Positions 6,766 to 24,844 of a stretch of 30,580 nt of DNA are shown here, piece by piece (positions within the stretch are counted from its first letter, which is position 1; each line of letters begins with the position of its first letter). The notes beneath the pieces were generated by a model. That model saw nothing but the letters and a program-made list of their open reading frames with translations, was not told the DNA's origin and did no database searches. The position numbers and the translations under genes were made by a program. Source of the stretch: a virus. The DNA lies in the IMG/VR virus record IMGVR_UViG_3300017963_000173, positions 1 through 30,580 of that record; one strand, 5' to 3'.

Positions 6766-6924
6766 ATGAAAAAAATTATATTAATTACAGTGATTTTCTT
6801 AGCAGGTTGCGTTAATCACAAATGCGATGAGTCGATACAAGATAGATTAGATCGTGAGCGTATAGCAGACCCGCATTTGTATATTTGTGTAGCACGTGAT
6901 GGTTTTGATTGTAAAACTAAATGA
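6766..6924 (+). CDS. Small lipoprotein, 52 residues
   Basis: Starts MKKIILITVIFLAGCVNHKC: a basic N-terminus, a hydrophobic core and the lipobox LAGC, predicting lipid modification at Cys15 and about 38 mature residues containing three more Cys. It would sit in the envelope of an infected Gram-negative cell. It could be an outer-membrane spanin-type or superinfection-exclusion lipoprotein, but it is not proline-rich like classical Rz1. The stop overlaps the methyltransferase start (ATGA), so the two are translationally coupled. An in-frame upstream ATG at 6691 lies inside the operator and is unlikely. Confidence 0.65.
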   Translation: MKKIILITVIFLAGCVNHKCDESIQDRLDRERIADPHLYICVARDGFDCKTK

Positions 6925-7898
6925 AATATTTAGATTTATTTAGTGGCGGGGGTGGCATAGCGTTGGGATTCGAAAAAGCAGGATTCACCCCCATCGCTTT
7001 AATAGATTCTGACAAAGACTGTTGCAAGACTTTAGGATTTAATCGGCCAAATTGGAATATTATTTGCCGCGACATTAAAGATATTAATTTTAATAGGTAC
7101 AATAATATAGATTTAATCACTGCCGGTATTCCTTGCCAAGCTTTTAGCTATGCCGGCAACAAGTTAGGACTTGAAGATACTAGAGGCACTTTGTTTTATG
7201 AAGTTGCAAAAGCTGTAACACACACAAACCCTAAAATTTTTATAATAGAAAATGTCAAAGGCCTAGAGTCACATAATGCTGGATTAACCTTAAAAACTAT
7301 GGTTACTGTATTTGAAGATTTGGGTTATACAGTAAATTACAAAATTTTAAATGCAATGAATTACAATGTGGCGCAAAAACGCGAGCGATTATTCATAGTT
7401 GGAACAAAAGCCAATTTAAATATTAATTTTAAATTTCCTGAGCCAAGCGATAATATATTAACTTTAAAAGATGCTTTGATTGATGTTCCAGAATCTGCTG
7501 GTTATTTTTACTCAAAAAAAAGATACGATATTTTAAAATTAATTCCACCTGGGGGGTGCTGGCGTAACTTACCTATCCACATACAAAAACAATACATGGG
7601 TGCTAGCTATTATCAATCAGGTGGCAAAACTGGTATAGCAAAGCGATTAAGCTGGGATGAGCCTTGCCTTACGCTTACTTGCAGCCCTTCACAAAAACAA
7701 ACAGAGCGTTGTCATCCTGATGAAACAAGACCATTGACAATCAGAGAGTACGCAAGAGTCCAGACCTTTCCTGATGACTGGGATTTCCAAGGCTCTATTA
7801 GTTCTCAATATAAACAAATAGGTAATGCTGTGCCTGTTAATCTAGCGTATGCCATGGGCAAGGCTAGTCTAACAGCCCTGCAAACGCATCACCATTAA
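6921..7898 (+). CDS. DNA (cytosine-5-)-methyltransferase
   Basis: 325 residues with the canonical motif order: I, DLFSGGGGIALGFEKAGF (residues 5-22); IV, IPCQAFS with catalytic Cys72; VI, ENV (Glu111); VIII, QKRERLFIVG (residues 153-162); a target-recognition region; IX, RPLTIREYARVQTFP; and X, QIGNAVPVNLA. It transfers methyl from S-adenosylmethionine to C5 of cytosine in a specific sequence. The target is not readable from the sequence. No restriction endonuclease lies beside it, so it probably protects phage DNA from host restriction. It is coupled to the upstream lipoprotein gene. Its last 35 bases overlap the convergent initiator gene. Confidence 0.93.
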   Translation: MKYLDLFSGGGGIALGFEKAGFTPIALIDSDKDCCKTLGFNRPNWNIICRDIKDINFNRYNNIDLITAGIPCQAFSYAGNKLGLEDTRGTLFYEVAKAVTHTNPKIFIIENVKGLESHNAGLTLKTMVTVFEDLGYTVNYKILNAMNYNVAQKRERLFIVGTKANLNINFKFPEPSDNILTLKDALIDVPESAGYFYSKKRYDILKLIPPGGCWRNLPIHIQKQYMGASYYQSGGKTGIAKRLSWDEPCLTLTCSPSQKQTERCHPDETRPLTIREYARVQTFPDDWDFQGSISSQYKQIGNAVPVNLAYAMGKASLTALQTHHH

Positions 7899-9894
7899 CC
7901 ACAATTTTTCTTTGAGTGTACTCAGGTATTAAACCAGCGGCTTCCATTTCTTCGCGCATCCTTAACGCCTTTTCGTTTCTCGACCTTACAAAGTCATCTT
8001 TTTCTTGCGCTTGCCTTTTGGCCTCAAGCTCATCAATTTTTATAACTTGATGCCCATCAACAAAATCTTCCATTCCTAGTTTTGCTTCCAAGTCAAAAAT
8101 TTCCACCTCCAAATCTAATTTTACGTTAGGCTTTGGATAGCTTGGATATTTTTTTGCATAATATTTAAACGCCAACAAATCCAATTTTTTGTTTAATTTA
8201 ATATTTTCGATGCACTCGTAAGATTTATCCTCGATAACCTCATAGGCGTTTTTTTCTTTGCCCAAATATCTATACATTTTTTTTAAATCTATTTTACGTG
8301 AACCTAGGTTTAATTTGTTTACCAACTCACTTCTGACTTCAATAAACAACTGTAATGCCTTGGCTTCAGTTATATACTGTGACTGAATCTCAGCCTGCTC
8401 ACGCTGTTTTTTTAACTCAGCAATAGGATTTATCATTTGAAGCAGCGTTTGCGTCTCCTGCCCTATTATTTGAGCGTTATAGCGCATCTCAGAATACAAA
8501 TCATTGACGACTTTGTCTTGCATCATGGTTTCAGTCAACAATTCAGCTACTGCATATCCACGATTGATTAAATAATCATTTGTGTATTCATCTATTGCAA
8601 ACCCTTGTTTCTGCATATGCTCATGAATCAAATCAATATTTTCGTTAACAATATCGCTCAAGCGTTTGTTGATTTCGCCTGGAATATATCTATTGCGGTT
8701 TTCAGCTTTAAGTTTTTTCCATCTAAGCTCATAGTCAAATAGTTCATTTACAAAGCTATGCTCAAAAGCTTGAACATAGCCCTCTGGTGGATGCCTCAAC
8801 ATGTCAATCAATGCCCCGATAGGTGATATTATTTTTTTATTAATTTTTATTTTGCCGAGTAAGAATGTGACATAATCCAATCTGTCAGTCAAGTTATTAG
8901 ACTCAATTACACCTTTCAAGTCTTGTTCGAAATTAGGTTTGTTGCAGGTTCTAGCAAAGTAAGCGCACAAATTTTTGAGATGATTTTTTATTTTTTTATT
9001 TAAAACGTTTCGTTCTTCCTGTGTGGCTGCGTGCAAAGGGGGTGGTAATTTCATGTTGTTGTACTTTCCTCGAGGCTTTGAGTCTTGGCTGATTTCCTGC
9101 TTCCTATTCTCTGACGTAGATAATATACGAGACGAATATATAATAAAATTAAAGCTATCTATGTCTGTACGAAATGTATGCATACTTTGTGTCAGGGGGG
9201 GGTGACGTTTTGCAGGGATACTTTGGGGGCAATCTGTACGTTTTGCAGGGGTACTTTTAACACCGCTGCCTTTGCTGTAGCTAATGCCTCTGCACAAAGG
9301 TGAGATTACAAGAGTTGATTTAACCAGCTCGTTTTCTTTTTGTTTTTTCTCTTGTAAAAATCCTGATTGTCTAAGCTCAATACTAGTTCGACGCCAAACT
9401 CTATCAGACACCCCCAGCTCAGATTTAATATTATTAACTCTAATCTCCCAAGTGCTTTTGAAGCTGGTTCTATACATGCAATATATCGCGCAAATAATCG
9501 CCTCTGAGCTTAGATTTGAATCAATTAGATACTTTGGTGCTTTGAGATAAACATTGCCTTCAATCGAATTTATGAGCTCTAAGCTTTTACCTGCTTTGCC
9601 AGTCGTGCTGCTTACAACTTTAATAAAATTATTTTCTTCTAGATTTTGGCGGACGGTTGCCCAAGCTCTGTCTTTAAATTTAAATTTCTTTTTGATGTCA
9701 TACACTCTAGGACTCCAACCTTCAGGCCGTGAATGCAAATATAACAATACTGCTTTAGCTCTAAGCGACAGAGACTCAGAGAAAAATATTTCAGTTGATA
9801 TGCGAGTGTGATAATTGTTTTGGAAATTGAAGAAAGATTTTGCTTTGATAGCTTCTAGTGCTTGTGCACATGTTGACTTATTTTTCCTAGCCAT
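7864..9894 (-). CDS. Replication initiator protein with two winged-helix domains
   Basis: 676 residues. Residues about 30-105 (LSLRAKAVLLYLHSRPEGW, then a recognition-helix region and NNFIKVVSS) and about 122-185 (LSSEAIICAIYCMYR, NNIKSELGVSDRVWRR, SGFLQEKK) look like two winged helix-turn-helix domains, as in plasmid and phage initiators. Residues about 205-250 are a Pro/Lys/Arg-rich linker encoded by iteron-like repeats. The remaining 420 residues are mainly helical, with no Walker motif or polymerase signature seen. The architecture (DNA-binding N-terminus, linker over repeats, C-terminal recruiting half) recalls lambda O. The start at 9894 is supported by CAAGAGGA. The function is inferred from domains and context. 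Confidence 0.65.
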   Translation of the reverse strand: MARKNKSTCAQALEAIKAKSFFNFQNNYHTRISTEIFFSESLSLRAKAVLLYLHSRPEGWSPRVYDIKKKFKFKDRAWATVRQNLEENNFIKVVSSTTGKAGKSLELINSIEGNVYLKAPKYLIDSNLSSEAIICAIYCMYRTSFKSTWEIRVNNIKSELGVSDRVWRRTSIELRQSGFLQEKKQKENELVKSTLVISPLCRGISYSKGSGVKSTPAKRTDCPQSIPAKRHPPLTQSMHTFRTDIDSFNFIIYSSRILSTSENRKQEISQDSKPRGKYNNMKLPPPLHAATQEERNVLNKKIKNHLKNLCAYFARTCNKPNFEQDLKGVIESNNLTDRLDYVTFLLGKIKINKKIISPIGALIDMLRHPPEGYVQAFEHSFVNELFDYELRWKKLKAENRNRYIPGEINKRLSDIVNENIDLIHEHMQKQGFAIDEYTNDYLINRGYAVAELLTETMMQDKVVNDLYSEMRYNAQIIGQETQTLLQMINPIAELKKQREQAEIQSQYITEAKALQLFIEVRSELVNKLNLGSRKIDLKKMYRYLGKEKNAYEVIEDKSYECIENIKLNKKLDLLAFKYYAKKYPSYPKPNVKLDLEVEIFDLEAKLGMEDFVDGHQVIKIDELEAKRQAQEKDDFVRSRNEKALRMREEMEAAGLIPEYTQRKIVVNGDAFAGLLD
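9120..9257. other. Candidate replication origin (iterons plus A+T-rich tract)
   Basis: ACGTTTTGCAGGGATACTTT (9205-9224) and ACGTTTTGCAGGGGTACTTT (9238-9257) differ at one base. A degenerate third copy, ACG-N11-TACTTT, is at 9169-9188. The centres are 36 and 33 bases apart, about three helical turns. Next to them, 9120-9160 is almost pure A+T. All lie in the linker-coding part of the initiator gene, as in the lambda O gene. A run of eight G then TG lies at 9195-9204 between copies. Confidence 0.5.
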
Positions 9895-11455: not shown

Positions 11456-12038
11456 TAATTCTTTCAATTAATTCTAACATTTGACGTTCCTGTAATTCTT
11501 TTAGTTTATTAACTTTATACATGTTACAAAAACTTTGTACATTTTTTTCTAACTTTCTGTCTTTAATCAAAGTCACAAGTCTATCATATGTGTTTGCAGG
11601 CTGATTATATTTAATTTCATGATGCGAGTTCTCTGTATCATTATCGCCTTCAACAGGAATACAGAATACTTGTAAAGCTGCATACTTATACGCTGCTGAT
11701 AATGCTTTGTTAGTTGCTTTATCGCCGCTGTCCATTGCTTCACCATATACAACAACTTCATGTTTGCTACCATCCTCTGCTGCCACAAAAGTGTATTTAA
11801 CTTTAACTGTGATATAAAATAATGCTGTGCCTTTTTGATTGACGCGCTCAACTACTGTGCGTTCCATAACTTCAGGTAGCATACACAGACCATATTTAGA
11901 TAATAATGGTGCTAGTGCATTATATACATCATCAATACCACGAAATTTATATCTTTGCGCTTGATTAATATTATCTTTACTGATTCCAGTTTTTGCTAAC
12001 TCTGTTTGTATTTGATTAATGCAGTTATATACTTTCAT
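11445..12038 (-). CDS. erf: ERF family single-strand annealing recombinase
   Basis: 197 residues. The N-terminal 140 residues follow the ERF pattern: an amphipathic helix, then YKFRGIDDVYNALAPLLSKY, a beta segment (VVERVNQKGTALFYITVKV), a second (HEVVVYGEAMDSGDKATNKA) and LSAAYKYAALQVFCIPVEGD. ERF proteins form rings that anneal complementary single strands, supporting phage recombination, concatemer formation or genome circularisation after infection. The C-terminal 55 residues are variable. A 31-residue membrane peptide gene ends exactly at its ATG, so the two are coupled. Confidence 0.88.
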   Translation of the reverse strand: MKVYNCINQIQTELAKTGISKDNINQAQRYKFRGIDDVYNALAPLLSKYGLCMLPEVMERTVVERVNQKGTALFYITVKVKYTFVAAEDGSKHEVVVYGEAMDSGDKATNKALSAAYKYAALQVFCIPVEGDNDTENSHHEIKYNQPANTYDRLVTLIKDRKLEKNVQSFCNMYKVNKLKELQERQMLELIERITNL

Positions 12039-12134
12039 TTATTTTTGCCTTTTTGCTTTGTTTTCTTTTAATTTAAAAAATATATAATATACTCCTAACC
12101 AAAAAATCATTTTAAAAATAAATAGTTCTATCAT
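12039..12134 (-). CDS. Membrane microprotein, 31 residues
   Basis: Reads MIELFIFKMIFWLGVYYIFF followed by a basic tail (KLKENKAKRQK). AGAGAGG is well spaced before the ATG and the stop directly abuts the ERF start codon, strong signs of real translation. One transmembrane helix with a cytoplasmic positive tail. It may be an effector or may serve mainly to couple ERF translation. Confidence 0.55.
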   Translation of the reverse strand: MIELFIFKMIFWLGVYYIFFKLKENKAKRQK

Positions 12135-12142
12135 TGTATGCC

Positions 12143-12177
12143 TCTCTTATGTTAAAAATTTATTGTAACATAAGAGA
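12143..12177. promoter_or_regulatory. 12-bp inverted repeat upstream of the ERF operon
   Basis: TCTCTTATGTTA (12143-12154) and TAACATAAGAGA (12166-12177) are perfect inverted copies with an 11-base centre. They begin eight bases upstream of the microprotein start and include its ribosome binding site on one arm. Operator or translation-controlling hairpin. Confidence 0.5.
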
Positions 12178-12193
12178 AGACAAAGGGAAACAT

Positions 12194-12358
12194 CTAATTA
12201 TCATCAGGCGAAAAATCTACAGAATCGTCAGGCAGTCCCAGGGTTTTTTCTAGCGCACGTTCTGCGGTTTGTTCTGCGACACCGTCATTTTTCTTAAAAA
12301 TATAAGGTGCTGAAACACCCCCCATTATTAATAAACATACAATAATGATTTTAATCAT
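12194..12358 (-). CDS. Small membrane-anchored protein, 54 residues
   Basis: Starts MIKIIIVCLLIMGGVSAPYI, a membrane anchor or signal segment, then FKKNDGVAEQTAERALEKTLG and an acidic end (LPDDSVDFSPDD). CGGAGA lies at suitable distance upstream. Small phage proteins with a single N-terminal helix followed by an E-x-AER-like helix and DLTP-like end are known to me from other podovirus genomes, without firm function. It is upstream of the ERF pair in the same orientation. Confidence 0.55.
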   Translation of the reverse strand: MIKIIIVCLLIMGGVSAPYIFKKNDGVAEQTAERALEKTLGLPDDSVDFSPDDN

Positions 12359-12407
12359 GTGAGAAATCTCCGATATTTAAATTACACCTATTATTGTAAA
12401 CTATAAA

Positions 12408-12460
12408 TGCTATGTGCTGCGCACCATATGCAAGGGTCAAGGATGAAAACGCACATAGCA
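12408..12460. promoter_or_regulatory. 10-bp inverted repeat, widely spaced
   Basis: TGCTATGTGC (12408-12417) and GCACATAGCA (12451-12460) are perfect inverted copies 33 bases apart. They lie in the 144-bp divergent region between the leftward gene at 12358 and the rightward gene at 12503. They may be paired operator half-sites bridging two promoters. Confidence 0.4.
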
Positions 12461-12472
12461 CCATTTAAGTTA

Positions 12473-12492
12473 CCCACTATACTTATAGTGGG
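12473..12492 (+). promoter_or_regulatory. Palindrome overlapping the ribosome binding site
   Basis: CCCACTATA and TATAGTGGG form a near-continuous hairpin with an ACTT tip. Its 3' arm supplies the first three G of the GGGGGTG at 12490-12496, which acts as Shine-Dalgarno for the ATG at 12503. The hairpin could hide the ribosome site or be a DNA operator. Confidence 0.45.
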
Positions 12493-12502
12493 GGTGATTC
12501 AT

Positions 12503-12763
12503 ATGAGAAAAAGGGCATACACTGTGCTGCTAGGCACAGTAACGGCAGTAGGTCTAGGGCTTTGCGTCGGGGGTGTATTTTTTGTGCCATTACTGCCTAT
12601 AGGTTGCACAATTCTAGGTGTGGCAGGTCCCTTAGCTCTTGTTGACGCTAAAACATCAAGTTGTCGAAAAACTTTACTTTCTAAATGTGGAGATAATAAC
12701 ACTGAAGAAAACAGTAATTCCGAAGAAAAAAAAGATTCTGTACATCGAAATTTTACTATTTAA
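12503..12763 (+). CDS. Membrane protein, 86 residues (holin candidate)
   Basis: I start at 12503 because GGGGGTGA lies seven bases upstream; an in-frame ATG at 12407 would run through the inverted repeats. Starts MRKRAYTVLLGTVTAVGLGL, with helices at about 6-27 and 30-50 rich in Gly and Val, then an Asn/Glu/Ser/Lys-rich soluble tail. Two helices with a charged tail fit class II holins. It is the first + gene before the late promoter and may be expressed separately. Confidence 0.55.
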   Translation: MRKRAYTVLLGTVTAVGLGLCVGGVFFVPLLPIGCTILGVAGPLALVDAKTSSCRKTLLSKCGDNNTEENSNSEEKKDSVHRNFTI

Positions 12764-12764
12764 C

Positions 12765-12793
12765 TTGTATCCTGTTGTCGTATTTAGTATAAT
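12765..12793 (+). promoter_or_regulatory. Sigma70-like promoter for the late operon
   Basis: TTGTAT (12765-12770) and TATAAT (12788-12793) are separated by exactly 17 bases, the best promoter match found in the window. All virion genes lie downstream on the same strand, with no equally good site between 12.8 kb and the capsid gene. Confidence 0.65.
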
Positions 12794-12838
12794 AATCAAA
12801 AGCAAGATTCATATTACAAACAAAACGCAACAACAGGA
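12770..12838. promoter_or_regulatory. 9-bp inverted repeat around the late promoter
   Basis: TCCTGTTGT (12770-12778) and ACAACAGGA (12830-12838) are perfect inverted copies. One overlaps the end of the -35 element and spacer, the other the ribosome site of the first gene. Possible operator for the ribbon-helix-helix-like protein encoded at 12959. Confidence 0.4.
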
Positions 12839-12846
12839 ATGCAACA

Positions 12847-12969
12847 ATGGTATCATATCTAGACGAAAGAATAAATGAATATAAGCGCATAGCTGAAGAA
12901 TTAAAGGTTAAAATTGCTGAACTTGAAAAGCTTTTAGAAAAGCTTCAGGGGGCAAATAATGCTAAATGA
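12847..12969 (+). CDS. Coiled-coil microprotein, 40 residues
   Basis: Starts MVSYLDERINEYKRIAEELK, followed by VKIAELEKLLEKLQ: clear heptads of a leucine zipper-like coiled coil. It begins 54 bases after the -10 element of the late promoter, with AGGA nearby, and overlaps the next gene by 11 bases. It may dimerise by itself or with the next protein. Function unknown. Confidence 0.6.
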   Translation: MVSYLDERINEYKRIAEELKVKIAELEKLLEKLQGANNAK

Positions 12970-13384
12970 TTACGATTATGTTTATGGCGGTTATGCATAC
13001 GAATTAGAATTACAACAAAGGCTAATACATGAATTGCAGCAGGTCAAAAGGTATGAGACAATAGCACCCATGAAAAAGAAAGAAAAAAAAGTAGCTTTTA
13101 ACTTTGGCCGTAAAGACTCAATAATTTTAAAAAGAATGGCCGAAGATGATTACACATGTATTAGCCATTATGTCAGGCGCGTATTGTTTAAATTTATTGA
13201 TTCAAAAGCAGTGCTAGATAACACAGTTTACCCGTCAGATTTAGATTATCAAAAAGTAGCCCTTAGATTGTCTATGCAAGAATATGAGGCGATTGAAAAG
13301 CAGTTGCGCAAATACAAAATGAATTTAAGCGACTATTTACGCAGAGTGATGCTAATGCACTTAAAGGATGCTAGAATAAAGTAA
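12959..13384 (+). CDS. Tandem ribbon-helix-helix-like protein, 141 residues
   Basis: After a helical N-terminus with a basic patch (MKKKEKKVAFNFG), two similar segments occur: residues about 46-79 (VAFNFGRKDSIILKRMAEDD, then ISHYVRRVLFKFI) and about 100-134 (VALRLSMQEYEAIEKQLRKY, then LSDYLRRVMLMHL). Each shows strand, helix, turn and a second helix beginning SxYxRRV, as in ribbon-helix-helix domains that normally dimerise. Having both in one chain suggests a pseudo-dimer. Its place as second gene after the late promoter suggests a regulator of that promoter. Confidence 0.6.
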   Translation: MLNDYDYVYGGYAYELELQQRLIHELQQVKRYETIAPMKKKEKKVAFNFGRKDSIILKRMAEDDYTCISHYVRRVLFKFIDSKAVLDNTVYPSDLDYQKVALRLSMQEYEAIEKQLRKYKMNLSDYLRRVMLMHLKDARIK

Positions 13385-13409
13385 GTTAACAAATAGTGGA
13401 AATCTTTAT

Positions 13410-13940
13410 ATGGAAAAGATGGATTTTAACAAGCTTGCAGATGAAATTGTAAGAGGAGCGTATGCAAAATTTGATGGAAATTATCATCCAAAATTATTAT
13501 TAGAAATATTTGCAGATGGGGGTGACTCTTGGGACTTCTGTGCTGCCGCAAAAGTAGGACAATCCACATTTCAGAAATGGACTAAAATTCATGAGAAATT
13601 TGGCAAATGCTATGAAGTTGCTAAGGCTCTAGCATACGCAGCCGTTGCTAATAATCCCAAATGGGATGATCCGCAAATGTTTCCCAGATATCGTTTAATG
13701 ATGAAAAACAGATTTAATTATACTGAGCAGCGTAAAATCAAATTAGATGAACTGGACGAAAACGCAACAATTCAAGACCAATACAAAACACTAATTCGCT
13801 ATATGAAAAGCGGTGAATTAACCACGCATGAAATGAATCAATTATCTAATATGTTGCTTGCAGCTATTAAGATAGATGAGTACACTGACTTAGTTAAACG
13901 ATTAGAGGAAGCTGAAAAAACAATTAAAAGTAAACTGTAA
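13410..13940 (+). CDS. Probable terminase small subunit
   Basis: 176 residues. The first 70 hold a helix-turn-helix-like segment (SWDFCAAAKVGQSTFQKWTK), after which MFPRYRLMMKNRFNYTEQRK resembles the linker seen in small terminases. The C-terminal half is helical (LTTHEMNQLSNMLLAAIKID, EEAEKTIKSKL), fitting oligomerisation. Small terminases recognise phage DNA and hand it to the large subunit (2854). Gene order before the portal supports the call; there is no diagnostic motif, so it is tentative. The stop overlaps the next start (TAATG). Confidence 0.55.
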   Translation: MEKMDFNKLADEIVRGAYAKFDGNYHPKLLLEIFADGGDSWDFCAAAKVGQSTFQKWTKIHEKFGKCYEVAKALAYAAVANNPKWDDPQMFPRYRLMMKNRFNYTEQRKIKLDELDENATIQDQYKTLIRYMKSGELTTHEMNQLSNMLLAAIKIDEYTDLVKRLEEAEKTIKSKL

Positions 13941-14086
13941 TGTCGGTTAAAGCAAGGATTTTGCGACTTCTCAAACAAACGGATAAGCTAATTAATGCAG
14001 TCACATATAAATTGATTGCAAAGTCTGAAGTAAGGGCAGAAATGGAGCAAGACAAGAAAGTTTTGTATATATATTTTGATATATGA
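13940..14086 (+). CDS. Hypothetical protein, 48 residues
   Basis: Starts in TAATG at the end of the small terminase gene and reads MSVKARILRLLKQTDKLINA, then VTYKLIAKSEVRAEMEQDKK and VLYIYFDI. Helical with a terminal beta strand, slightly basic. Tight coupling on the 5' side and TGAGG for the next gene at its stop argue it is real. No family recognised. Confidence 0.55.
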   Translation: MSVKARILRLLKQTDKLINAVTYKLIAKSEVRAEMEQDKKVLYIYFDI

Positions 14087-14094
14087 GGTAAAAA

Positions 14095-14421
14095 ATGGGA
14101 TTTTTTAAAAGTATATTTAAAGCGGCTGCCCCAATTATCGGTGCAGTTATTGGTGGCCCGCTTGGGTTTGCAGGCGGCAGCGCGTTAGCTGGTCTTGCGC
14201 AACAGCAATCTGACAAAAGAAAACGCAAGATTGCTGAACAAGCAGCCGAGGCGCAAAGAGCATCAGAGCGCAGCAAGGTAAAAATGGCCGAAGATAAGCT
14301 TAAGCGTGAGCGTGACAGAGCATTAAACAGGATTAACAAAGGCAGATTACGTGCAGCGCGTGGGCGGATTAGAGGGGGTTTATTTGGCAACCCTGAAGAA
14401 TCAACAGGCCTAGGAGGCTAA
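14095..14421 (+). CDS. Small virion-associated protein upstream of portal
   Basis: 108 residues. Residues 1-35 are a Gly/Ala-rich hydrophobic stretch (MGFFKSIFKAAAPIIGAVIG, then GPLGFAGGSALAG), followed by a basic coiled-coil helix rich in Lys, Arg, Ala and Glu, ending in an Arg/Gly-rich tail (RLRAARGRIRGGLFG). Proteins of this architecture often lie among head-tail genes in podoviruses; a membrane-active ejection or head-tail role is possible. TGAGG precedes the ATG. Its stop is immediately followed by the portal TTG start. Confidence 0.6.
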   Translation: MGFFKSIFKAAAPIIGAVIGGPLGFAGGSALAGLAQQQSDKRKRKIAEQAAEAQRASERSKVKMAEDKLKRERDRALNRINKGRLRAARGRIRGGLFGNPEESTGLGG

Positions 14422-14422
14422 T

Positions 14423-15970
14423 TTGAGCTTAAGAAATTATAAAAAGCGGTATGACAAAGCCCGCAGCAATGCATATCAATGGTGGAATTTGCATGAAGCT
14501 TGTTATCATTACTGTATCCCAAATCGCAATATGTTCTATTATCCGAGCCGCACTCAGGGGTCACAAAAGAATGTAAAGGTTTATGACACCACGGGGGTGG
14601 CAGCTGCCAATAATTTTGTATCTAAGCTACATTCATCGTTAACACCCCCAGCTCAGGTCTGGGCGATGTTTGAGGCATCGGATGAAGTTCCAGAAGATGA
14701 GCAACATGACGTTAATCTAGAGCTTAAGAATTACACTGAGCGCATGTTCTCATTTATCCGTCGCTCTAATTTTGATTTAGTTATCCAAGAATGTTATTAC
14801 GATTTAGCAGTTGGTACGGCAGTATTAGTAATCAATGACTCTGGCGATGATGAAAGCCCGCTCACATTTAGCTCAATCCCACTTGACCAGGTATCAGTTG
14901 AGGAATCAATCAATCATTTGCTTGAAACCGTGTTTAGAACATGGGGTGAAGTTAGAATTGATGATATCCAGATGATGTGGCCTAAGGCTAAGCTATCGCA
15001 AACCATGCAGATAGAATTACGTGATAATCCTAATGCTATGGTCACAGATTTGATTGAAGGTTGTATTTATAATCATTCAGACAAGAAAACACCTTACACT
15101 TACGTTCTTTGGCATAAGGAAGATGTCTTATTTGAAGAGAAGCTAGAAAGCTCACCTTTCGTGTTATTTAGATGGTCAAAGATTAATAATGAAGCTTTTG
15201 GGCGTGGCGTTATTATGCAAGCATTGCCAAGTTTAATTAGCTTGCAGACCGCAGCTTATTTTGAGTTTGCCGCAGCTAATCTAAATATAGCTAAGCCCCT
15301 AATGGCCTATAGCGATGGTATATTTAACCCGTATACGTTTGAAATGAAACCTAACACTGTAATTCCGGTTAGCCCTAACTCCGCGGGGCAATGGCCAATC
15401 CAGCCGTTCCCTGACACGATTAGCCCGCAATTATTTCAGTTAACCGCATCTGATTTAAGGCAGCAAATTAATACGCTGATGTTTGCAAACCCATTGGGGC
15501 CTATTACTCAAGCACCTGATAGAACAGCAACTGAACTTGCACTTAGACAGCGCAACTTTGCTGAAGAAATAGGGCCGCCTTTTACTCGCTTGCAGCAGGA
15601 ATTTATGCCGCGGATGTTAAAGCGTATTAGTTATATTTTAAATAAGCGCGGCGTGCTTAAAAAGCCAAAGCTTAAAAATAATGAAATTAGGATTCAATAT
15701 AAATCCCCATTGGTCATCAATCAGAATCAAGCCGATGTACAATCTAGCTTGCAGTATTTTCAATTGTTACAGGGGGTGCTAGGACCTGAACAAACGCTTA
15801 TCTTTATGAATACAATCAAATACCCTGAATGGCTGGCTGAAAAGATGGGAGTTGACCCAAATATCATTAACTCATCAACTCAGGTTGCAGCGCAATTGCA
15901 AGAAGTTAAAAACAAAATGGATGCTGAAAAAATGCAACAACAACAAGGCATGATGAATGAGCAACAATAA
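14423..15970 (+). CDS. Portal (head-to-tail connector) protein
   Basis: 515 residues, the size of T7-like portals. Characteristic stretches are YNYKKRYDKA-like N-terminal helices, then YDTTGVAAANNFVSKLHSSL with TPPAQVWAMF, and the mid-protein PFVLFRWSKINNEAFGRGVI and QAPDRTATELALRQRNFAEE. It forms the dodecameric ring at the packaging vertex. The frame has no early ATG; TTG at 14423 has a perfect AGGAGG (14412-14417) at ideal distance, so this is the start. The end overlaps the next gene by 14 bases. Confidence 0.93.
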   Translation: MSLRNYKKRYDKARSNAYQWWNLHEACYHYCIPNRNMFYYPSRTQGSQKNVKVYDTTGVAAANNFVSKLHSSLTPPAQVWAMFEASDEVPEDEQHDVNLELKNYTERMFSFIRRSNFDLVIQECYYDLAVGTAVLVINDSGDDESPLTFSSIPLDQVSVEESINHLLETVFRTWGEVRIDDIQMMWPKAKLSQTMQIELRDNPNAMVTDLIEGCIYNHSDKKTPYTYVLWHKEDVLFEEKLESSPFVLFRWSKINNEAFGRGVIMQALPSLISLQTAAYFEFAAANLNIAKPLMAYSDGIFNPYTFEMKPNTVIPVSPNSAGQWPIQPFPDTISPQLFQLTASDLRQQINTLMFANPLGPITQAPDRTATELALRQRNFAEEIGPPFTRLQQEFMPRMLKRISYILNKRGVLKKPKLKNNEIRIQYKSPLVINQNQADVQSSLQYFQLLQGVLGPEQTLIFMNTIKYPEWLAEKMGVDPNIINSSTQVAAQLQEVKNKMDAEKMQQQQGMMNEQQ

Positions 15971-16283
15971 TCCGTATATTGTCACCCCCAACCCATTTGA
16001 TGAATACAACAGATATTTAAAAGAGCATTTAAAATATGACTCTAAGTCACAGAACTTAGCTAAGCTTTGCTACGAAGTATTTGAGATAAACGAACACGGT
16101 AAAAAATTAATGGAAAAATGGATTGATAATTTCTTGTTTAATTCTCAGGTGCATTTATCATCAAGCCACCCCCGCGATGACGCATTGTATTGGCAAGGTT
16201 TTACCGATTTTATTAGATACTGTCGAAAATTTGCAAAACAACACAAGGAACACATAGATGCTGAACAACGAAACAAACAATAA
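15957..16283 (+). CDS. Bbp19-like phage protein
   Basis: 108 residues, overlapping both the portal and the scaffold genes. The central part (YEVFEINEHGKKLMEKWIDN, then SSHPRDDALYWQGFTDFIRY) resembles Bbp19-type proteins found between portal and scaffold in many podoviruses: GKxLxExW, a short variable part, then a GxxDFIR helix. Function in virion assembly is not established. Moderate confidence in the family. Confidence 0.6.
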   Translation: MSNNNPYIVTPNPFDEYNRYLKEHLKYDSKSQNLAKLCYEVFEINEHGKKLMEKWIDNFLFNSQVHLSSSHPRDDALYWQGFTDFIRYCRKFAKQHKEHIDAEQRNKQ

Positions 16284-16968
16284 TCCAGCTACCGAGAACA
16301 CTGAGAACACCGAGAACACAGCTGTTGCGCAAGAGCCAAGTTGGTATTGGGATGAGAACACACCAGGCCAAGGTGAGCGTCCAGAATGGTTAAAAGAAAA
16401 ATACAGCAAAGTAACTGACCAAGCAAAAGCATATATTGAAGCTGAGAAATATATTGGCCAATCTAAAGCCCCAGAGGCATATGATTTAAAAGAATTTGAA
16501 GACTATATAGATTTAGAAGCTGAACAAGTAGCAAATCTAACTGCGGTTGCCAAACAGCATAAATTAAGCCAGGAAGCTTTAAATGACATATTGAGCCCGC
16601 TAAAGGCATATCACAAATCATTAATTCCTGATATTAACAAAGAAATAGAGAAATTAGGTCCCCATGCTAAAACCAGAATTGAAACTGTAAACACCTGGGC
16701 AAGTAATAATTTATCTGAAAAAGCACTTGAAGCAATTGGTAATTTGCCAGAAACTGCTGAAGTTGTAGAGCTTTTAGATGAAATTAGACAGCTTTATGCG
16801 CAATCTAGTCGTGTACCAACTGGCAACGAGGGTACAACTGAACATAAGGTTTTAAACGCTGAAGACATTCAGGAAGAAATTAAGCAAAATTATCAGCGTT
16901 ACAGAACAGATGCTAAATACAGACGCGACTTGCAAGAAAAGCTACATATCGCACTTGGCGATGGCTAA
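16258..16968 (+). CDS. Scaffolding protein
   Basis: 236 residues, strongly acidic and helical. Features: N-terminal repeats of Glu-Asn-Thr encoded by three tandem GAGAACACN copies (16294-16320); then RPEWLKEKYSKVTDQAKAY, YIGQSKAPEAYDLKEFEDYI (a pattern of podovirus scaffolds); and a basic C-terminal helix (YRTDAKYRRDLQEKLH) that would contact the capsid. It directs procapsid assembly and is then removed. AAGGA precedes the ATG. It overlaps the previous gene by 26 bases and lies just before the capsid gene. Confidence 0.85.
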   Translation: MLNNETNNNPATENTENTENTAVAQEPSWYWDENTPGQGERPEWLKEKYSKVTDQAKAYIEAEKYIGQSKAPEAYDLKEFEDYIDLEAEQVANLTAVAKQHKLSQEALNDILSPLKAYHKSLIPDINKEIEKLGPHAKTRIETVNTWASNNLSEKALEAIGNLPETAEVVELLDEIRQLYAQSSRVPTGNEGTTEHKVLNAEDIQEEIKQNYQRYRTDAKYRRDLQEKLHIALGDG

Positions 16969-17119
16969 GTTTGACAACTTCGCGATTTAGAGCAAGAATA
17001 GAATTAAATCAAGATGGATACTTCTTGAGGCGAACCCCGCCTGGGATACTTCGAACACTCAGAACCCATAGAAGATTATTAGGTTAATTTTTTATATATA
17101 GGACATTTAAGGGGACGTT
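16969..17119 (+). promoter_or_regulatory. Scaffold-capsid intergenic region with repeats and hairpin
   Basis: A 151-bp gap, the longest in the late block. GGATACTTC occurs at 17016-17024 and 17044-17052, flanking a hairpin AGGCG (17028-17032)/CGCCT (17038-17042). A TTGACA at 16971-16976 could be a -35 element, with only a poor -10 (AAGAAT) 17 bases on. It may raise capsid expression relative to scaffold. Confidence 0.4.
16971..17087 (+). CDS. Possible Arg-rich 38-residue peptide (TTG start)
   Basis: An open frame from TTG at 16971 encodes MTTSRFRARIELNQDGYFLR, then RTPPGILRTLRTHRRLLG. It fills most of the scaffold-capsid gap. Codon choice (CGA, CCG, CTC) differs from neighbouring genes and no Shine-Dalgarno is visible, so it may be a chance frame over a structured RNA element. 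Confidence 0.25.
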   Translation: MTTSRFRARIELNQDGYFLRRTPPGILRTLRTHRRLLG

Positions 17120-17962
17120 ATGAGTTTATCCTTATCCACCGTGCAGCAAACCGAGTTTGATGCAATGGTAAAAGCCGAATATTATTCGCACGGCTTTATT
17201 TTACGTGATTGTTGTTACACAAAAAAAGATGTTATCGGTGCAACCGAGCAATTTAGAAAAGTTGGATATGTTACCGCTAATGCGCAATCTTACCAACAAA
17301 CAGTCTCGATTCAAGACCCGAATTTCCAAGCTATTACCGTAAATTTAACTAAATATGCGGCAGGAACTGCGGTTGATGAAATTCAAGATTTAACAGTTAA
17401 TTTTTCATCTAAAGAGGAATTAGCAATGTTAGTTGCGCATGCAATTGGCAGACGCTCTGACCAAATTATTATTGATGCAATAAACGGCAGTGCTGGTACC
17501 ACTATTGCAAATGGCGGTACTAACATGAGTTATGCAAAATTGCGTAATGTTGTGCAGTTATTTGAAGAAAACGCAGTACCAATTGAAATGCGTTATATGG
17601 CAATGTCAGGTAACAATTTACGTGCACTGCTTGCTGCTGACCAAATCATTTCTAGATTCTATACATCTAATGATGCAGTAGCGACTGGCACATTAAACAA
17701 CCGTGATTTACTTGGTATGAACATTAAAATCATCCCAACTATGGTTGAAGGCGGTCTGCCAATTGCTGCTAACATCCGTGAAGCTTACGCTTGGCATTGG
17801 CGTTCTGTCGGTATGGCGATTGGTCAAGATATGCGCACTGAAGTAAATTATCTGCCGCGTGAAACCTCATGGTTTATAAACGGTTTATTCTTTGCTGGTG
17901 CAGGCGTTATTGACGATCGCGGTGTATTCCAAATCGATTGTGATGAATCAGTAAACCCATAA
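17120..17962 (+). CDS. Major capsid protein
   Basis: 280 residues following scaffold at the expected place, with a good site (AAGGGGAC) before the ATG. The sequence has the style of a compact HK97-fold podovirus capsid: a start MSLSLSTVQQTEFDAMVKAE, a region IGRRSDQIIIDAINGSAGTT, then LLAADQIISRFYTSNDAVAT (P-domain region) and an A-domain loop with MRTEVNYLPRETSW and FFAGAGVIDDRGVFQIDCDE. It would form the head shell. No separate decoration gene is certain, but the proteins at 20294 and 20840 are candidates. Confidence 0.87.
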   Translation: MSLSLSTVQQTEFDAMVKAEYYSHGFILRDCCYTKKDVIGATEQFRKVGYVTANAQSYQQTVSIQDPNFQAITVNLTKYAAGTAVDEIQDLTVNFSSKEELAMLVAHAIGRRSDQIIIDAINGSAGTTIANGGTNMSYAKLRNVVQLFEENAVPIEMRYMAMSGNNLRALLAADQIISRFYTSNDAVATGTLNNRDLLGMNIKIIPTMVEGGLPIAANIREAYAWHWRSVGMAIGQDMRTEVNYLPRETSWFINGLFFAGAGVIDDRGVFQIDCDESVNP

Positions 17963-17972
17963 GGGGGATTAA

Positions 17973-18998
17973 ATGGCTTTTAATGTTCAGTCATTTGTGC
18001 CTGTATCATCAAGCGGTAACACGGACATAATCCAATTACCTGACGGGACCTATATCGGAGGTCCCGCTCTTTATACGTATATCACAAATGACACTCTAAC
18101 TGAGGTTGAAACCTCGGGTTATTTTAATAATCAAGCAGGCATATTAAATGTCTATGACAGAGTTTACGTTAGAGCGTCTGACGGTTCTAGAGATTATTAC
18201 ATAAGCACAGTTTCGTTTAATCCAACCAATGTGGAAATTTTAACCGATGGTATTAGTGGGAATGTGGATGGCCCTGCATCAAGTACAGATAACGCAATAG
18301 CTAGATGGGATGGCGCTGGGGGTGATGCACTTCAAAACAGCGGCATTTTAATTGATGATTCAAACGCTGTAAGCGGCATAACTTCATTAGATGTTGATAA
18401 TATTAATATTAATGGCAATACAGTTATAAGCACTGATACTAACGGCAATATTAATTTAACTCCAAATGGCACTGGTATTAATGTACTTGCCAATGCTCAG
18501 GTTACAGCTCTTACAGCATCAAGAGCAGTTGTGACAGATGCGTCTAAAAATTTGACTTCAAGCGCAGTAACTAGTACTGAACTTGGCTACGTGTCTGGGG
18601 TTACTAGTGCAATTCAAACTCAATTAAATGCTTTAAGTGGTCAAACTTCACGCGCCATTAATCAAGTAGCTCACGGTCTTAGTGTGGGCAATATTGTTTA
18701 TATTGACGGCTCAGGTGATTTTCAACCAGCAATAGCTAGTGCCGCAGCTACAGCGGAAGCCATAGGCATTGTTACAGCGGTTGCAGGAGTTGATGATTTT
18801 ACCTTGCAATTTGGCGGTTATATAAGCGCAGGTCTTTCTGGGTTAACTCCAGGCGCGGTGCAATATTTATCACCATCATCTGCAGGCGACTTAACTGAAA
18901 CTAAACCAACTACCGCAGGACAGGTAATTAAGCCATTGATTATTGCAGATTCGGCAACCAGTGGGTATTGGACAAATTATCTAGGAGTATTAATTTAA
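17973..18998 (+). CDS. Modular fibre/decoration protein
   Basis: 341 residues in three parts. Residues about 1-90 contain the beta module also found at 1819 and 20840 (VETSGYFNNQAG, YDRVYVRASDGSRDYYIS). Residues about 95-225 show a pattern common in phage fibre-like proteins (GPASSTDNAIARWDGAGGDA, GNINLTPNGTGINV, VTSTELGYVSGVTSAIQTQL). Residues 228-341 match the C-terminal domain of the fibre at 630 (HGLSVGNIVYIDGSG, GVDDFTLQFGG, KPTTAGQVI, NYLGVLI). It is a chimera of reused modules, probably virion-surface exposed. Its stop shares TAATG with the next gene. Confidence 0.7.
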   Translation: MAFNVQSFVPVSSSGNTDIIQLPDGTYIGGPALYTYITNDTLTEVETSGYFNNQAGILNVYDRVYVRASDGSRDYYISTVSFNPTNVEILTDGISGNVDGPASSTDNAIARWDGAGGDALQNSGILIDDSNAVSGITSLDVDNININGNTVISTDTNGNINLTPNGTGINVLANAQVTALTASRAVVTDASKNLTSSAVTSTELGYVSGVTSAIQTQLNALSGQTSRAINQVAHGLSVGNIVYIDGSGDFQPAIASAAATAEAIGIVTAVAGVDDFTLQFGGYISAGLSGLTPGAVQYLSPSSAGDLTETKPTTAGQVIKPLIIADSATSGYWTNYLGVLI

Positions 18999-19729
18999 TG
19001 TCTTCAGCTTTAGAGATTAACAAAAAGATTTCGCAAGATGGCAGTACAGTATATGCCGCATCTAGCGCAGGGTCTGATGATTATGCTATAACGTTAGTGC
19101 CTGCAATTGCAGCTTACACGACTGGTCAAATAGTACAATTTGAAGCCGATGTTGCTAACACTGGCGCGTCTACGCTTAATATTAATGGCATTGGCGCAAT
19201 TGCTATCAAAAAAAATCACGACCAAGATTTAGCAGATAATGATATTGAAGCAGGGCAGATTGTAACTGTTGTGTACGACGGTACTAATTTTCAGATGCAA
19301 TCGCAGTTGGCTAACGCAACCAGTCTAAGTGCTGCGTCGCAGGCAGAGCAAGAAGCAGCAACAGCAACAAATGTTTATGTATCACCTGGCAGACAGCAGT
19401 TTCATCCAAGTGCAATTAAATCTCAATGCTTGGTAACAATTTCAGGTGGTTCCCCTACATTGCAAACTAATTATAATGTTTCATCTATTACAGATAATGG
19501 CGTAGGTTTGTTTACTATAAATTTTTCAACTAGTTTTTCATCTGAAAATTATGCAATATCTGGAATAACACAAAGAAACCCAGGGGATGCTAATAATGGA
19601 GGATTTATAAGTTTAAATAGAAATATAAGCAGAACTGCAAGTTCATGTTCAATTGCTATAGTTAGCAATGCTGCAAGCGCAGAAGATTTCCCAGTATTTA
19701 CAGTAATGTTTGCAGGTGACCAATCATGA
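18998..19729 (+). CDS. Tail fibre-like protein
   Basis: 243 residues from the ATG in TAATG; an in-frame ATG at 18968 lies inside the upstream gene and is less likely. Residues about 20-105 (YAITLVPAIAAYTTGQIVQF, STLNINGIGAIAIKKN, AGQIVTVVYDGTNFQMQS) match a domain common in phage fibres. QAEQEAATATNVYVSPGRQQ follows, a typical junction, and then a C-terminal beta domain (SITDNGVGLFTINFS) that varies between phages. Likely receptor-binding fibre. It overlaps the next gene by four bases, which encodes a likely partner. Confidence 0.7.
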   Translation: MSSALEINKKISQDGSTVYAASSAGSDDYAITLVPAIAAYTTGQIVQFEADVANTGASTLNINGIGAIAIKKNHDQDLADNDIEAGQIVTVVYDGTNFQMQSQLANATSLSAASQAEQEAATATNVYVSPGRQQFHPSAIKSQCLVTISGGSPTLQTNYNVSSITDNGVGLFTINFSTSFSSENYAISGITQRNPGDANNGGFISLNRNISRTASSCSIAIVSNAASAEDFPVFTVMFAGDQS

Positions 19730-20256
19730 CAAATTTAACCAAAAGAATAAATCCCGAAACTAACCAAGAAGAAACTTATTTAAAAAAAATAGTTTTTACT
19801 GATAGTGAAGGAATGGCTAATTTAATTATCCCAAGTAGCAAAGAATCTATAAATAAATTTTTTAACATTGAGATGAATAACACCGAGTATCAAGAACATA
19901 TAATAAAAGGTGCAATTCCTGAATACATAAACACTTATGAGTTTATAGATGACAAAGACCATCCCGCCGACAGAGAATTTAGAAACGCATGGAAACAAAA
20001 CGGTAAATCTATAGAATTTGATTTGGATAAGGCTAAAAATATTCAATTAAAAAATATAAGAGATGCACGTAAAATTAAATTAGAAGATTTAGATAAACAA
20101 ATTAATGGCGCAATTCTAGAAAACAATGCAGCAGAAAAGTCTAGACTAGCCAAAGAACGTCGAGAGCTTTTAGATATAACTGAGCCATTGAAAGCAATGA
20201 TTCCATCATCTATTGATGATATTAAAACCGCCTTTCCGGACAAGCTTAAGAATTAA
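19726..20256 (+). CDS. Fibre-associated protein / possible assembly chaperone
   Basis: 176 residues, overlapping the fibre gene (ATGA). The C-terminal half reads DREFRNAWKQNGKSIEFDLD followed by KAKNIQLKNIRDARKIKLED and a helix to LLDITEPLKAMIPSSIDDIK. This arrangement (DRxFRNAW, then KA-x2-I-x3-IR-x2-R, L-x3-D) is shared by many phage proteins encoded beside fibres and thought to help fibre assembly or attachment. The N-terminal half is less conserved and probably specific for the adjacent fibre. Called from pattern and position. Confidence 0.6.
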   Translation: MTNLTKRINPETNQEETYLKKIVFTDSEGMANLIIPSSKESINKFFNIEMNNTEYQEHIIKGAIPEYINTYEFIDDKDHPADREFRNAWKQNGKSIEFDLDKAKNIQLKNIRDARKIKLEDLDKQINGAILENNAAEKSRLAKERRELLDITEPLKAMIPSSIDDIKTAFPDKLKN

Positions 20257-20258
20257 TC

Positions 20259-20294
20259 ATGACTTTAACAAAACTAGTATCGGATAAAGAATAA
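20259..20294 (+). CDS. 11-residue leader-like ORF
   Basis: ATG at 20259 gives MTLTKLVSDKE and stops in TAATG shared with the next gene start. Too short for a function by itself. It may couple translation or be a remnant of a fibre/spike N-terminus. No strong ribosome site. Confidence 0.2.
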   Translation: MTLTKLVSDKE

Positions 20295-20827
20295 TGGCAA
20301 TAGATTACGACAGATATCCTACTTTCTTTGCAGCATCAACAGCGTTTACCCCTGGTGCTACGCCACAAGATGTTTTTACAATTACAGGTAGCGCGACTAA
20401 AAATATTCATATATTGCAAATAGCAATATCTACAACTCAAACAACCCCAGGTTACAACGTTTGGTTTTTAGCTAAACGTTCAACTGCTAATAGTGGCGGC
20501 ACATCATCATCTATAGCCCCTATTGCTGCTAATTCTAATAAAAATTCAGCTACTGCAACAGTTAGACAATACACAGCTAATCCAACCGCAGGCAGCCTAT
20601 TTGGTAATATTTGGGGTGGATGGGTTCCATCACCTGACAGGGCGCCAGCAAGCGGAGCGGGGGCAGCTTTTGGTGATATAGTTGTAAATTTTGAAGATAT
20701 ATTAGGTGGGCCTGTTACATTAATAGATGAAACAGAAGTATTAAGTTGGAATTTTAACGGAGCAGCACTGCCAACAGGCCTTAGTGTATTAGCTTGGGTA
20801 AAATGGGTAGAATCAAGTAAATCATAG
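20294..20827 (+). CDS. Virion protein of unknown function, 177 residues
   Basis: Mostly beta, Gly/Ala/Thr/Ser-rich. Notable stretches are MAIDYDRYPTFFAASTAFTP, LFGNIWGGWVPSPDRA and LSWNFNGAALPTGLSVLAWV. The WNF-GA-LP-GL-V ending suggests a beta-sandwich virion surface protein; a decoration or head-fibre role is plausible. It sits between fibre-type genes and the tail tube genes. The start is in TAATG with the tiny ORF at 20259. Confidence 0.6.
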   Translation: MAIDYDRYPTFFAASTAFTPGATPQDVFTITGSATKNIHILQIAISTTQTTPGYNVWFLAKRSTANSGGTSSSIAPIAANSNKNSATATVRQYTANPTAGSLFGNIWGGWVPSPDRAPASGAGAAFGDIVVNFEDILGGPVTLIDETEVLSWNFNGAALPTGLSVLAWVKWVESSKS

Positions 20828-20839
20828 GAGTAAAATTAA

Positions 20840-21550
20840 ATGGCTTTAACAATTCAAACATGGTGCAGAGCATCAGCAAGCGCAAACGAACCACTAGACT
20901 CAGCTAACAGTCGTGGATGTTTTCGTGAATACAATTATTTTACCGCAGACTCACAAGCAACTGTGTCAGCTAGTGGTTATTTTAATGGTGGCGTTGCATA
21001 CAGAGGATTATCAAATGATATCGTAACTGGTGACTATGTAAGCGTTTATTCAAGCGCTGATAGTTCATTGCGCAAATATCGATTAACTAACACATCTGGC
21101 GTTGTAACTAGCTTATTAGTGCCTGCTGCAGGTTCTAGTGTGCAAGCTAATGTTACATTAACTGCTGCTGAATTTATCGCAGGCTATGCAACTCCAATTC
21201 AGGTATTGCCTGCCCCTGGTGCTGGCCTTGCTTACACTAATGTTCGCATGGTAGTTAGACTTAATTACGGCTCAGCTCAGTTTGCTAACGGTGGCGCAGT
21301 TGGTCTTCAATACGGAGCAACTGCTAACTTAGGTGGTACTAAAGTCACTGCTACTACTGCGGCCGTGGCAATCAATGCCTTAACTGCTGATTCAGCTTGG
21401 GCGGTTATTCCTGTAACTGTTGTGCCTGTTGCTTTAGCTACTGCGGTTAATGCTGCTATTACATTATCTAATGATTCAGGCGCATTTACTGGCGGTACTG
21501 GTGCTACATTAGAAGTTGCGGTTTTAGCTGATGTTGTAGAAACTGCTTAA
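20840..21550 (+). CDS. Virion protein with N-terminal beta module, 236 residues
   Basis: Residues about 25-97 (FREYNYFTADSQATVSASGY, VTGDYVSVYSSADSS, KYRLTNTSGVVTSLLV) belong to the same module found at 1819 and 17973. The C-terminal 140 residues are another Ala/Val/Thr-rich beta domain (VRMVVRLNYGSAQFANGGAV, TVVPVALATAVNAAITLSN). TAGGAG lies before the ATG. Likely a decoration or fibre-base protein. The use of the same module in three late genes suggests a shared docking partner on the head or tail. Confidence 0.65.
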   Translation: MALTIQTWCRASASANEPLDSANSRGCFREYNYFTADSQATVSASGYFNGGVAYRGLSNDIVTGDYVSVYSSADSSLRKYRLTNTSGVVTSLLVPAAGSSVQANVTLTAAEFIAGYATPIQVLPAPGAGLAYTNVRMVVRLNYGSAQFANGGAVGLQYGATANLGGTKVTATTAAVAINALTADSAWAVIPVTVVPVALATAVNAAITLSNDSGAFTGGTGATLEVAVLADVVETA

Positions 21551-21567
21551 TTTAATGGGGGTGAAAT

Positions 21568-22164
21568 ATGGCAATGCAAAAAGTGCAAATAATATCATTT
21601 GCCTTAAGCTTGCTTGGCAAAAAACCAATTGTATCACTAGATAATCAAAGCGATATAGTTGGAGCTGCCCAGCAGGCTTTTGATTTTTTATTGCCATCTG
21701 TTATTAGCAAACATCAATGGCGATTTGCAGTTAAAATTCTGCAATTATCTAAATTGGTAGAAACACCCCCAGTTACTGATTGGAAATATATATTTCAACT
21801 GCCAAGTGATTATAAAAAACTAATTAGGTTATACCCGCAAAATTATTTGTATGAGGTATATAATAATTCGGTTTTATACACAAATATTGACGGTCCATTA
21901 TATATTGAATATCAAATAGAGCCTACCGTATCACAATTGCCCGATTACTTTAATCATTATTTTGCTTACTGTATTGCTGAAGCTTTGGCTTTATCTAATG
22001 CGCATAGTGTTAGTTTTTCTAATAAACTGTTTCAAGACAAGGAAGCTTATTTAGCTCAAGCATTAGCGGCAGATGCGCAAAACAGACCAAATCAAGGTAT
22101 ACAATCAATGCCAATGATTACTAATCGCGCTTTAGGATATCCAGGAGCCTATGGCCAACGTTAA
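21568..22164 (+). CDS. Tail tubular protein A-like (gp11-like)
   Basis: 198 residues. The N-terminal helices (MAMQKVQIISFALSLLGKKP, then DIVGAAQQAFDFLLPSVISK and HQWRFAVK) follow the pattern of T7 gp11-type adaptor proteins that attach below the portal: a repeated L-G-K-P segment and an A-x2-A-x3-LL helix. TYLEYQ-like beta segments (GPLYIEYQIEP) follow. The ribosome site is GGGGGTGA, one of the 36 GGGGGTG words. It overlaps the next tail gene by 14 bases, as in many podoviruses. Confidence 0.75.
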   Translation: MAMQKVQIISFALSLLGKKPIVSLDNQSDIVGAAQQAFDFLLPSVISKHQWRFAVKILQLSKLVETPPVTDWKYIFQLPSDYKKLIRLYPQNYLYEVYNNSVLYTNIDGPLYIEYQIEPTVSQLPDYFNHYFAYCIAEALALSNAHSVSFSNKLFQDKEAYLAQALAADAQNRPNQGIQSMPMITNRALGYPGAYGQR

Positions 22165-24370: not shown

Positions 24371-24843
24371 TAGAATTTTTATTAATGGGCGCACAGGCAG
24401 CAGGAGCTATTACCGATATAATTGGCAAATCACAAGCTTATAAAACTGAAAAACTCGCAATAGGCATTGAACAAGAACAAATCAAAGCACGCATGGATCA
24501 AGAACGCCTAGTATTCCAAGAACAATCCTTAGCTGACCTTAGAAATTTAGAACAGACTCTGGCAAGCCAAAGGGCATTTGCTGCTGCAAGGGGGGTGAAT
24601 CCTGGCCAAGGCTCAGCATTAATGCAGATGCAGCGTAGTATAACTGAATTTAGAAATGACGAAATAGCGCGTAATCTATCCCAAATGTTTTTAACTCAGC
24701 AGAGAAGTACGCAACTTAGAGCTAAAGATTTAGAGCGTAAAAGCGCACGTGATAAATTTAGAATTGGATTATTTAAAACAGCATTTGAAAACATATCAAC
24801 CATGGGTAGTAGCGGTGGCTTGGGTAGCTTAACATTAAATTAA
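24367..24843 (+). CDS. Internal virion protein (gp14-like)
   Basis: 158 residues. A short hydrophobic N-terminus (MIEFLLMGAQAAGAITDIIG) is followed by long helices (IEQEQIKARMDQERLVFQEQ, LASQRAFAAARGVNPGQGSA). The segment LASQRAxFAARGVxxGxGSA is typical of small internal core proteins preceding gp15-like genes. In T7 the equivalent is ejected and forms a pore in the outer membrane. Start in ATGA with the tail tube gene. Confidence 0.72.
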   Translation: MIEFLLMGAQAAGAITDIIGKSQAYKTEKLAIGIEQEQIKARMDQERLVFQEQSLADLRNLEQTLASQRAFAAARGVNPGQGSALMQMQRSITEFRNDEIARNLSQMFLTQQRSTQLRAKDLERKSARDKFRIGLFKTAFENISTMGSSGGLGSLTLN

Positions 24844-24844
24844 T

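Follow-up and report, generated by a model that had tools for sequence, protein, structure and literature searches.

The phage genome and its initiator-like gene

The stretch of DNA analysed here (the window) is the entire 30,580-nucleotide IMG/VR virus record IMGVR_UViG_3300017963_000173. Since it carries a 123-bp direct terminal repeat (positions 1-123 are identical to 30458-30580), the record represents a complete phage genome, circular or terminally redundant, with 30,457 unique bases. A T7-like head-tail connector, a large terminase and a phage capsid protein were recognised among its genes, and the virus is a small tailed phage. A short GGCGGCGGA array is found at 1146-1189, within a glycine-rich tail-protein ORF. 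Another public record, L057 (IMGVR_UViG_3300017971_000925), is 99.95% identical to positions 12,002-25,967, a comparison that covers the window from 12,002 onward and lies outside the repeat region described below.

An early block on the minus strand codes for a VRR-NUC protein, an initiator-like protein of 676 amino acids and an Erf-type annealing protein. No polymerase, helicase or homologue of lambda P was recognised among the window proteins scanned, and comparison of the neighbours of the initiator-like gene with Pfam and PHROGs (small ORFs scanned in part) revealed no recognisable P-type loader or DnaB/helicase gene. Helicase loaders can be unrecognisable. The initiator-like gene is convergent with a C5-cytosine methyltransferase gene on the plus strand (6921-7898), the two overlapping by 35 bp at the 3' end of the former. 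The features of the locus are as follows:

7864-9894, minus strand: initiator-like gene (676 aa), with an HTH_36-like winged helix, a second HTH-like stretch, a repeat-bearing linker and an orphan C-terminus of ~400 aa
9580-9822, minus strand: first winged helix, aa 25-105 (HTH_36, phrog_1456, phrog_270, AlphaFold2)
9310-9561, minus strand: possible second winged helix, aa 112-195 (phrog_186, phrog_11046; uncertain)
9238-9257, minus strand: iteron copy 1, AAAGTACCCCTGCAAAACGT, continuing as ACAGA; 19/20 to copy 2
9205-9224, minus strand: iteron copy 2, AAAGTATCCCTGCAAAACGT; 19/20 to copy 1
9164-9188, minus strand: degenerate copy 3, AAAGTATGCATACATTTCGTACAGA; 18/25 to copy 1, 20-mer register 9169
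9120-9163: A+T-rich tract, presumed unwinding element; best 40-bp window 80% A+T

As judged from profile matches and structure prediction, the N-terminus of the protein is a winged helix, probably of the HTH_36 or phage-initiator type. The match to HTH_36 (aa 42-91, E 2.1e-4) scores 21.5 bits, which is below the 25-bit cutoff of Pfam, while phrog_1456 (E 3.7e-7) and phrog_270, annotated as "replication initiation protein" (E 0.007), match the same terminus. A profile built from 17 relatives aligns weakly to aa 38-95. AlphaFold2, run without relatives, gave a pLDDT of ~72-85 over aa 61-110 and a poor prediction outside the first winged helix; a Foldseek/PDB fold search with this domain returned weak, generic matches, the top ones mostly to winged-helix regulators. 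A second HTH-like domain at aa ~112-195 is uncertain: it is indicated by weak matches to phrog_186 ("DnaD-like helicase loader", E 0.001) and phrog_11046 ("transcriptional regulator", aa 152-189, E 2.7e-4), and the single-sequence model, with a pLDDT of only 58, does not support it. No profile matches were found for the C-terminus of ~400 aa. The protein does not match Phage_rep_O (PF04492), for which the lambda O control matches at 5.7e-36, and searches of IMG/VR, named phages and plasmids yielded no full-length homologue; searching these with the N-terminus alone or the C-terminus alone gave the same result, and sampled Gammaproteobacteria gave winged-helix matches or noise only. A match of the linker to L062 is spurious, and PDB sequence matches to PPR proteins were rejected as repeat noise.

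Repeats and A+T-rich tract within the gene

The original prediction placed two 20-bp elements with 19 identities (9205 and 9238) and a degenerate third (9169) inside this gene, and all three are borne out. Copies 1 and 2 are the sole pair of 20-mers with at least 18 identities within 20-100 bp in the 30.6-kb genome, and such a pair occurred in 0 of 100 genomes simulated with a first-order Markov model. The identity of copy 3 to copy 1 (18/25, 72%) was not reached once when the adjoining 104 bp were shuffled 5000 times. No further copies with up to three mismatches are present elsewhere in the window genome. The pitch was measured at 33 and 36 bp, as proposed, which corresponds to 11 and 12 codons, so that all three copies lie in one frame; the peptides they encode are KSTPAKRTD, QSIPAKRH and QSMHTFRTD. 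The elements are located downstream of the winged helix, where they had been expected, and more precisely after the second HTH-like stretch and before the orphan C-terminus. The A+T-rich tract said to adjoin them is real but modest, and unexceptional for so A+T-rich a genome: its best 40-bp window reaches 80% A+T, where the genome averages 63%, and 4.6% of all windows are as rich or richer. The 60 bp following copy 3 are 73% A+T, compared to 63% for the gene.

Related initiator genes with in-gene repeats

When viral contigs were scanned for three CCTGCAAA units, at least 120 stretches were obtained, most of which are low-complexity coding repeats. At least 7 distinct genes with a winged-helix initiator layout were nevertheless retrieved, with the repeats directly after the winged helix (among the matches listed: L065, L068, L075, L079, L094, L142 and L178; L083, L134 and L139 are duplicates and were left out of the count of distinct genes). 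HTH_36 or O-like membership was assigned by profile to L065, L075, L094, L178 and L191; L068 has weak HTH matches only, and the layout of L079 and L142 was judged by eye. Scanning for two CCCCTGCAAAA gave 15 contig stretches, 9 of them (5 distinct genes) within O-like initiator genes, and among the matches listed 3 of the 7 distinct initiator genes from the first scan are common to both sets. Going by these matches, scans using only the DNA of the repeat core find initiator genes out of proportion. One gene, L195, is a Phage_rep_O (PF04492) gene, lambda's own family, and carries ACCCCCTGCAAAAAATGTA. In the relatives, the arrays consist of elements like those of the window, cACCCCtGCAAAAtcTGCA, in the corresponding part of the gene. 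Outside recognised initiator genes, CCCCTGCAAAA repeats were seen in L189 (a longer array) and L192 (where they lie in no ORF over 100 aa). Two exact copies of CCTGCAAAACG in viral and bacterial contigs were mostly unrelated coding repeats, and a scan with an extended single-copy repeat pattern gave no matches.

Relatives were also collected by protein similarity. A tblastn search starting from the L065 protein matched 267 named phage records, of which many are annotated as O-like or replication initiation protein, from which 12 regions were fetched, 10 of them with a usable gene. In all 10, repeats lie within the gene, immediately behind the winged helix. Elements of the ACCCCYGMA type are present in 8 of the 10, mostly 220-360 nt into the gene, and RAH1 and D77 carry ACC-plus-palindrome elements of their own, seen by eye. 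Outside the initiator genes, the fetched loci contain 2 sites at the same threshold in ~43 kb, one of which is on the opposite strand within an array. The A+T content rises after the array in all 15 measurable relatives. In many O-like genes (L197-L206, L065, L094 and L191), the tract immediately after the iterons contains a second repeat, roughly GAACCRTCAA; this repeat may be part of the unwinding region.

When a motif trained on the relatives was scanned back onto the window, 9235-9253 ranked 1st of 61,124 positions. With the IMG/VR-trained motif this element ranked 1 and copy 2 ranked 8, the first rank being partly circular because part of the window's core had been used to fetch the IMG/VR set; with a motif trained on named GC-rich phages alone, the window element ranked 13 of 61,124. 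The location of the matches in initiator genes, their position and the A+T-richer tract after them (15/15) were not selected for by the core. In the window, TACCCCTGCAAAACGTACA is likewise an ACCCCYGCA-type in-gene repeat after a winged helix.

Comparison with known in-gene origins

Lambda-style origins inside an initiator gene are a kind already known from lambda, Stx phages and MD8. In lambda, the annotated iterons lie inside O (Phage_rep_O, PF04492), after the N-terminal DNA-binding domain, and are followed by an adjoining A+T-rich tract (78% A+T after the array vs 52%), which is the order found in the window and agrees with the parallel originally drawn. The cores also resemble each other (ATCCCTCAAAACG / ATCCCTGCAAAACG), copy 2 and lambda iteron 1 sharing ATCCCT(G)CAAAACG with one inserted base. 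Lambda differs in having four iterons with a pitch of 20-24 bp in three frames (0, 2, 2 and 1), whereas the window protein does not belong to PF04492, is twice as long and has no recognised P gene in its company. The O genes of the Stx phages P27 and 933W, which are close lambda relatives, have in-gene iterons beside an A+T region that are bound by O (PMC7466680), as in the window for their placement but with six iterons.

The named relatives are HTH_36 "O-like" initiators (for example Pseudomonas phage MD8 gp56, Riah, PotUPM1, Vibrio pA2SJ1 and Microcystis Mvi-Yong1342-1; PHROGs 391, 678 and 1032). They share with the window a winged helix, followed by in-gene repeats of the cACCCCYGCAnnnnnTGCA type and then an A+T-richer tract. 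The authors who described MD8 drew attention to repeats in its O-like gene and to a mechanism like that of lambda (PMC8508860). These proteins are ~210-300 aa long with one winged helix, and their genes have 2-7 copies, mostly at a pitch of 17-23 bp; the 676-aa window protein does not match PHROGs 391, 678 or 1032, having weak N-terminal matches to other PHROGs only, and its two good copies and one poor one at a pitch of 33-36 bp count against an in-gene origin. On the same side weigh the absence of a full-length homologue and of a recognised P or DnaB gene, and the rank of 13 given by the motif from named phages.

Proposed origin function and alternative explanations

In spite of these points, the gene at 7864-9894 very probably contains a lambda-style replication origin, as the original prediction had it; the O-like relatives, including one Phage_rep_O gene with the same core at the same place, point in this direction. 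The protein would bind the GC-rich repeats via its N-terminal winged helix, perhaps together with the second HTH-like domain, and assemble a complex on them that could help melt the A+T-rich tract alongside. Recruitment of the host DnaB helicase may then fall to the large C-terminus of the protein or to a phage protein that escaped recognition, which is proposed because no polymerase, helicase or P-type loader gene was recognised in the phage.

It is unlikely that the main origin lies elsewhere, for instance at the divergent junction at ~12.2 kb, with the in-gene repeats being secondary or a relic. The cumulative GC skew is lowest at 12,487, but both this point and the maximum, at 4,120, fall where genes change direction, third-position skew is erratic in the window, and the searches of the genome turned up no other repeat array of this kind. 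GC skew had been suggested as a check on an origin at 9.2 kb; as it switches only where transcription changes direction, it was rejected as evidence either way, and so lends that location no support.

That the repeats are binding sites acting as an operator for their own gene, or for transcription through it, rather than an origin, is quite improbable. Winged-helix proteins are often repressors, and weak promoter-like matches overlap the A+T tract (9117-9144 on the plus strand and 9167-9140 on the minus strand), although these are not clearly above chance overall. The sites are, however, ~640 bp inside the gene, away from its start, and in the relatives arrays of up to 7 copies precede an A+T-richer tract and adjoin P-like or DnaB genes. 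Autoregulation and origin function can coexist.

Very improbable, finally, is a role at the protein level only, in which a flexible linker contains a duplicated short basic peptide, S-x-P-A-K-R, and the DNA itself has no function: although the copies share a frame (33 bp being 11 codons) and encode STPAKR and SIPAKR, all five shared codons are identical (P ~0.005), and in the relatives a single gene can present this DNA element in different frames, translated as PAK, PLQ or PCK. Judged on the window alone, the claim that the DNA dictates the linker peptide is weakly supported by these identical synonymous codons, which a recent duplication would also preserve. The relatives make the case strongly: their 79 sites in 16 genes are distributed over the three frames as 47, 22 and 10, with 15 of the 16 genes using two or three frames, and this is the chief ground for concluding that it is the DNA, and not the peptide, that is conserved.

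With an in-gene origin at this locus, a phage whose initiator lacks close relatives would have an origin open to testing. More broadly, the comparison with relatives indicates that origins placed within coding sequence are frequent outside lambda too and that their DNA takes precedence over the peptide it encodes, and in-gene repeats in several frames could be used as a simple means to mark phage origins and name initiators in unannotated genomes. Tentatively, and with somewhat less than even confidence, a large, little-studied group of phage initiators may share one origin grammar: ACCCC plus a subgroup-specific short palindrome, repeated within the gene in any frame, with an A+T-richer tract behind the array that often contains GAACCRTCAA-like repeats. 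The window phage might then represent an outlying, sparse form, in which one large protein would both recognise the sites and recruit the helicase, with no P partner.
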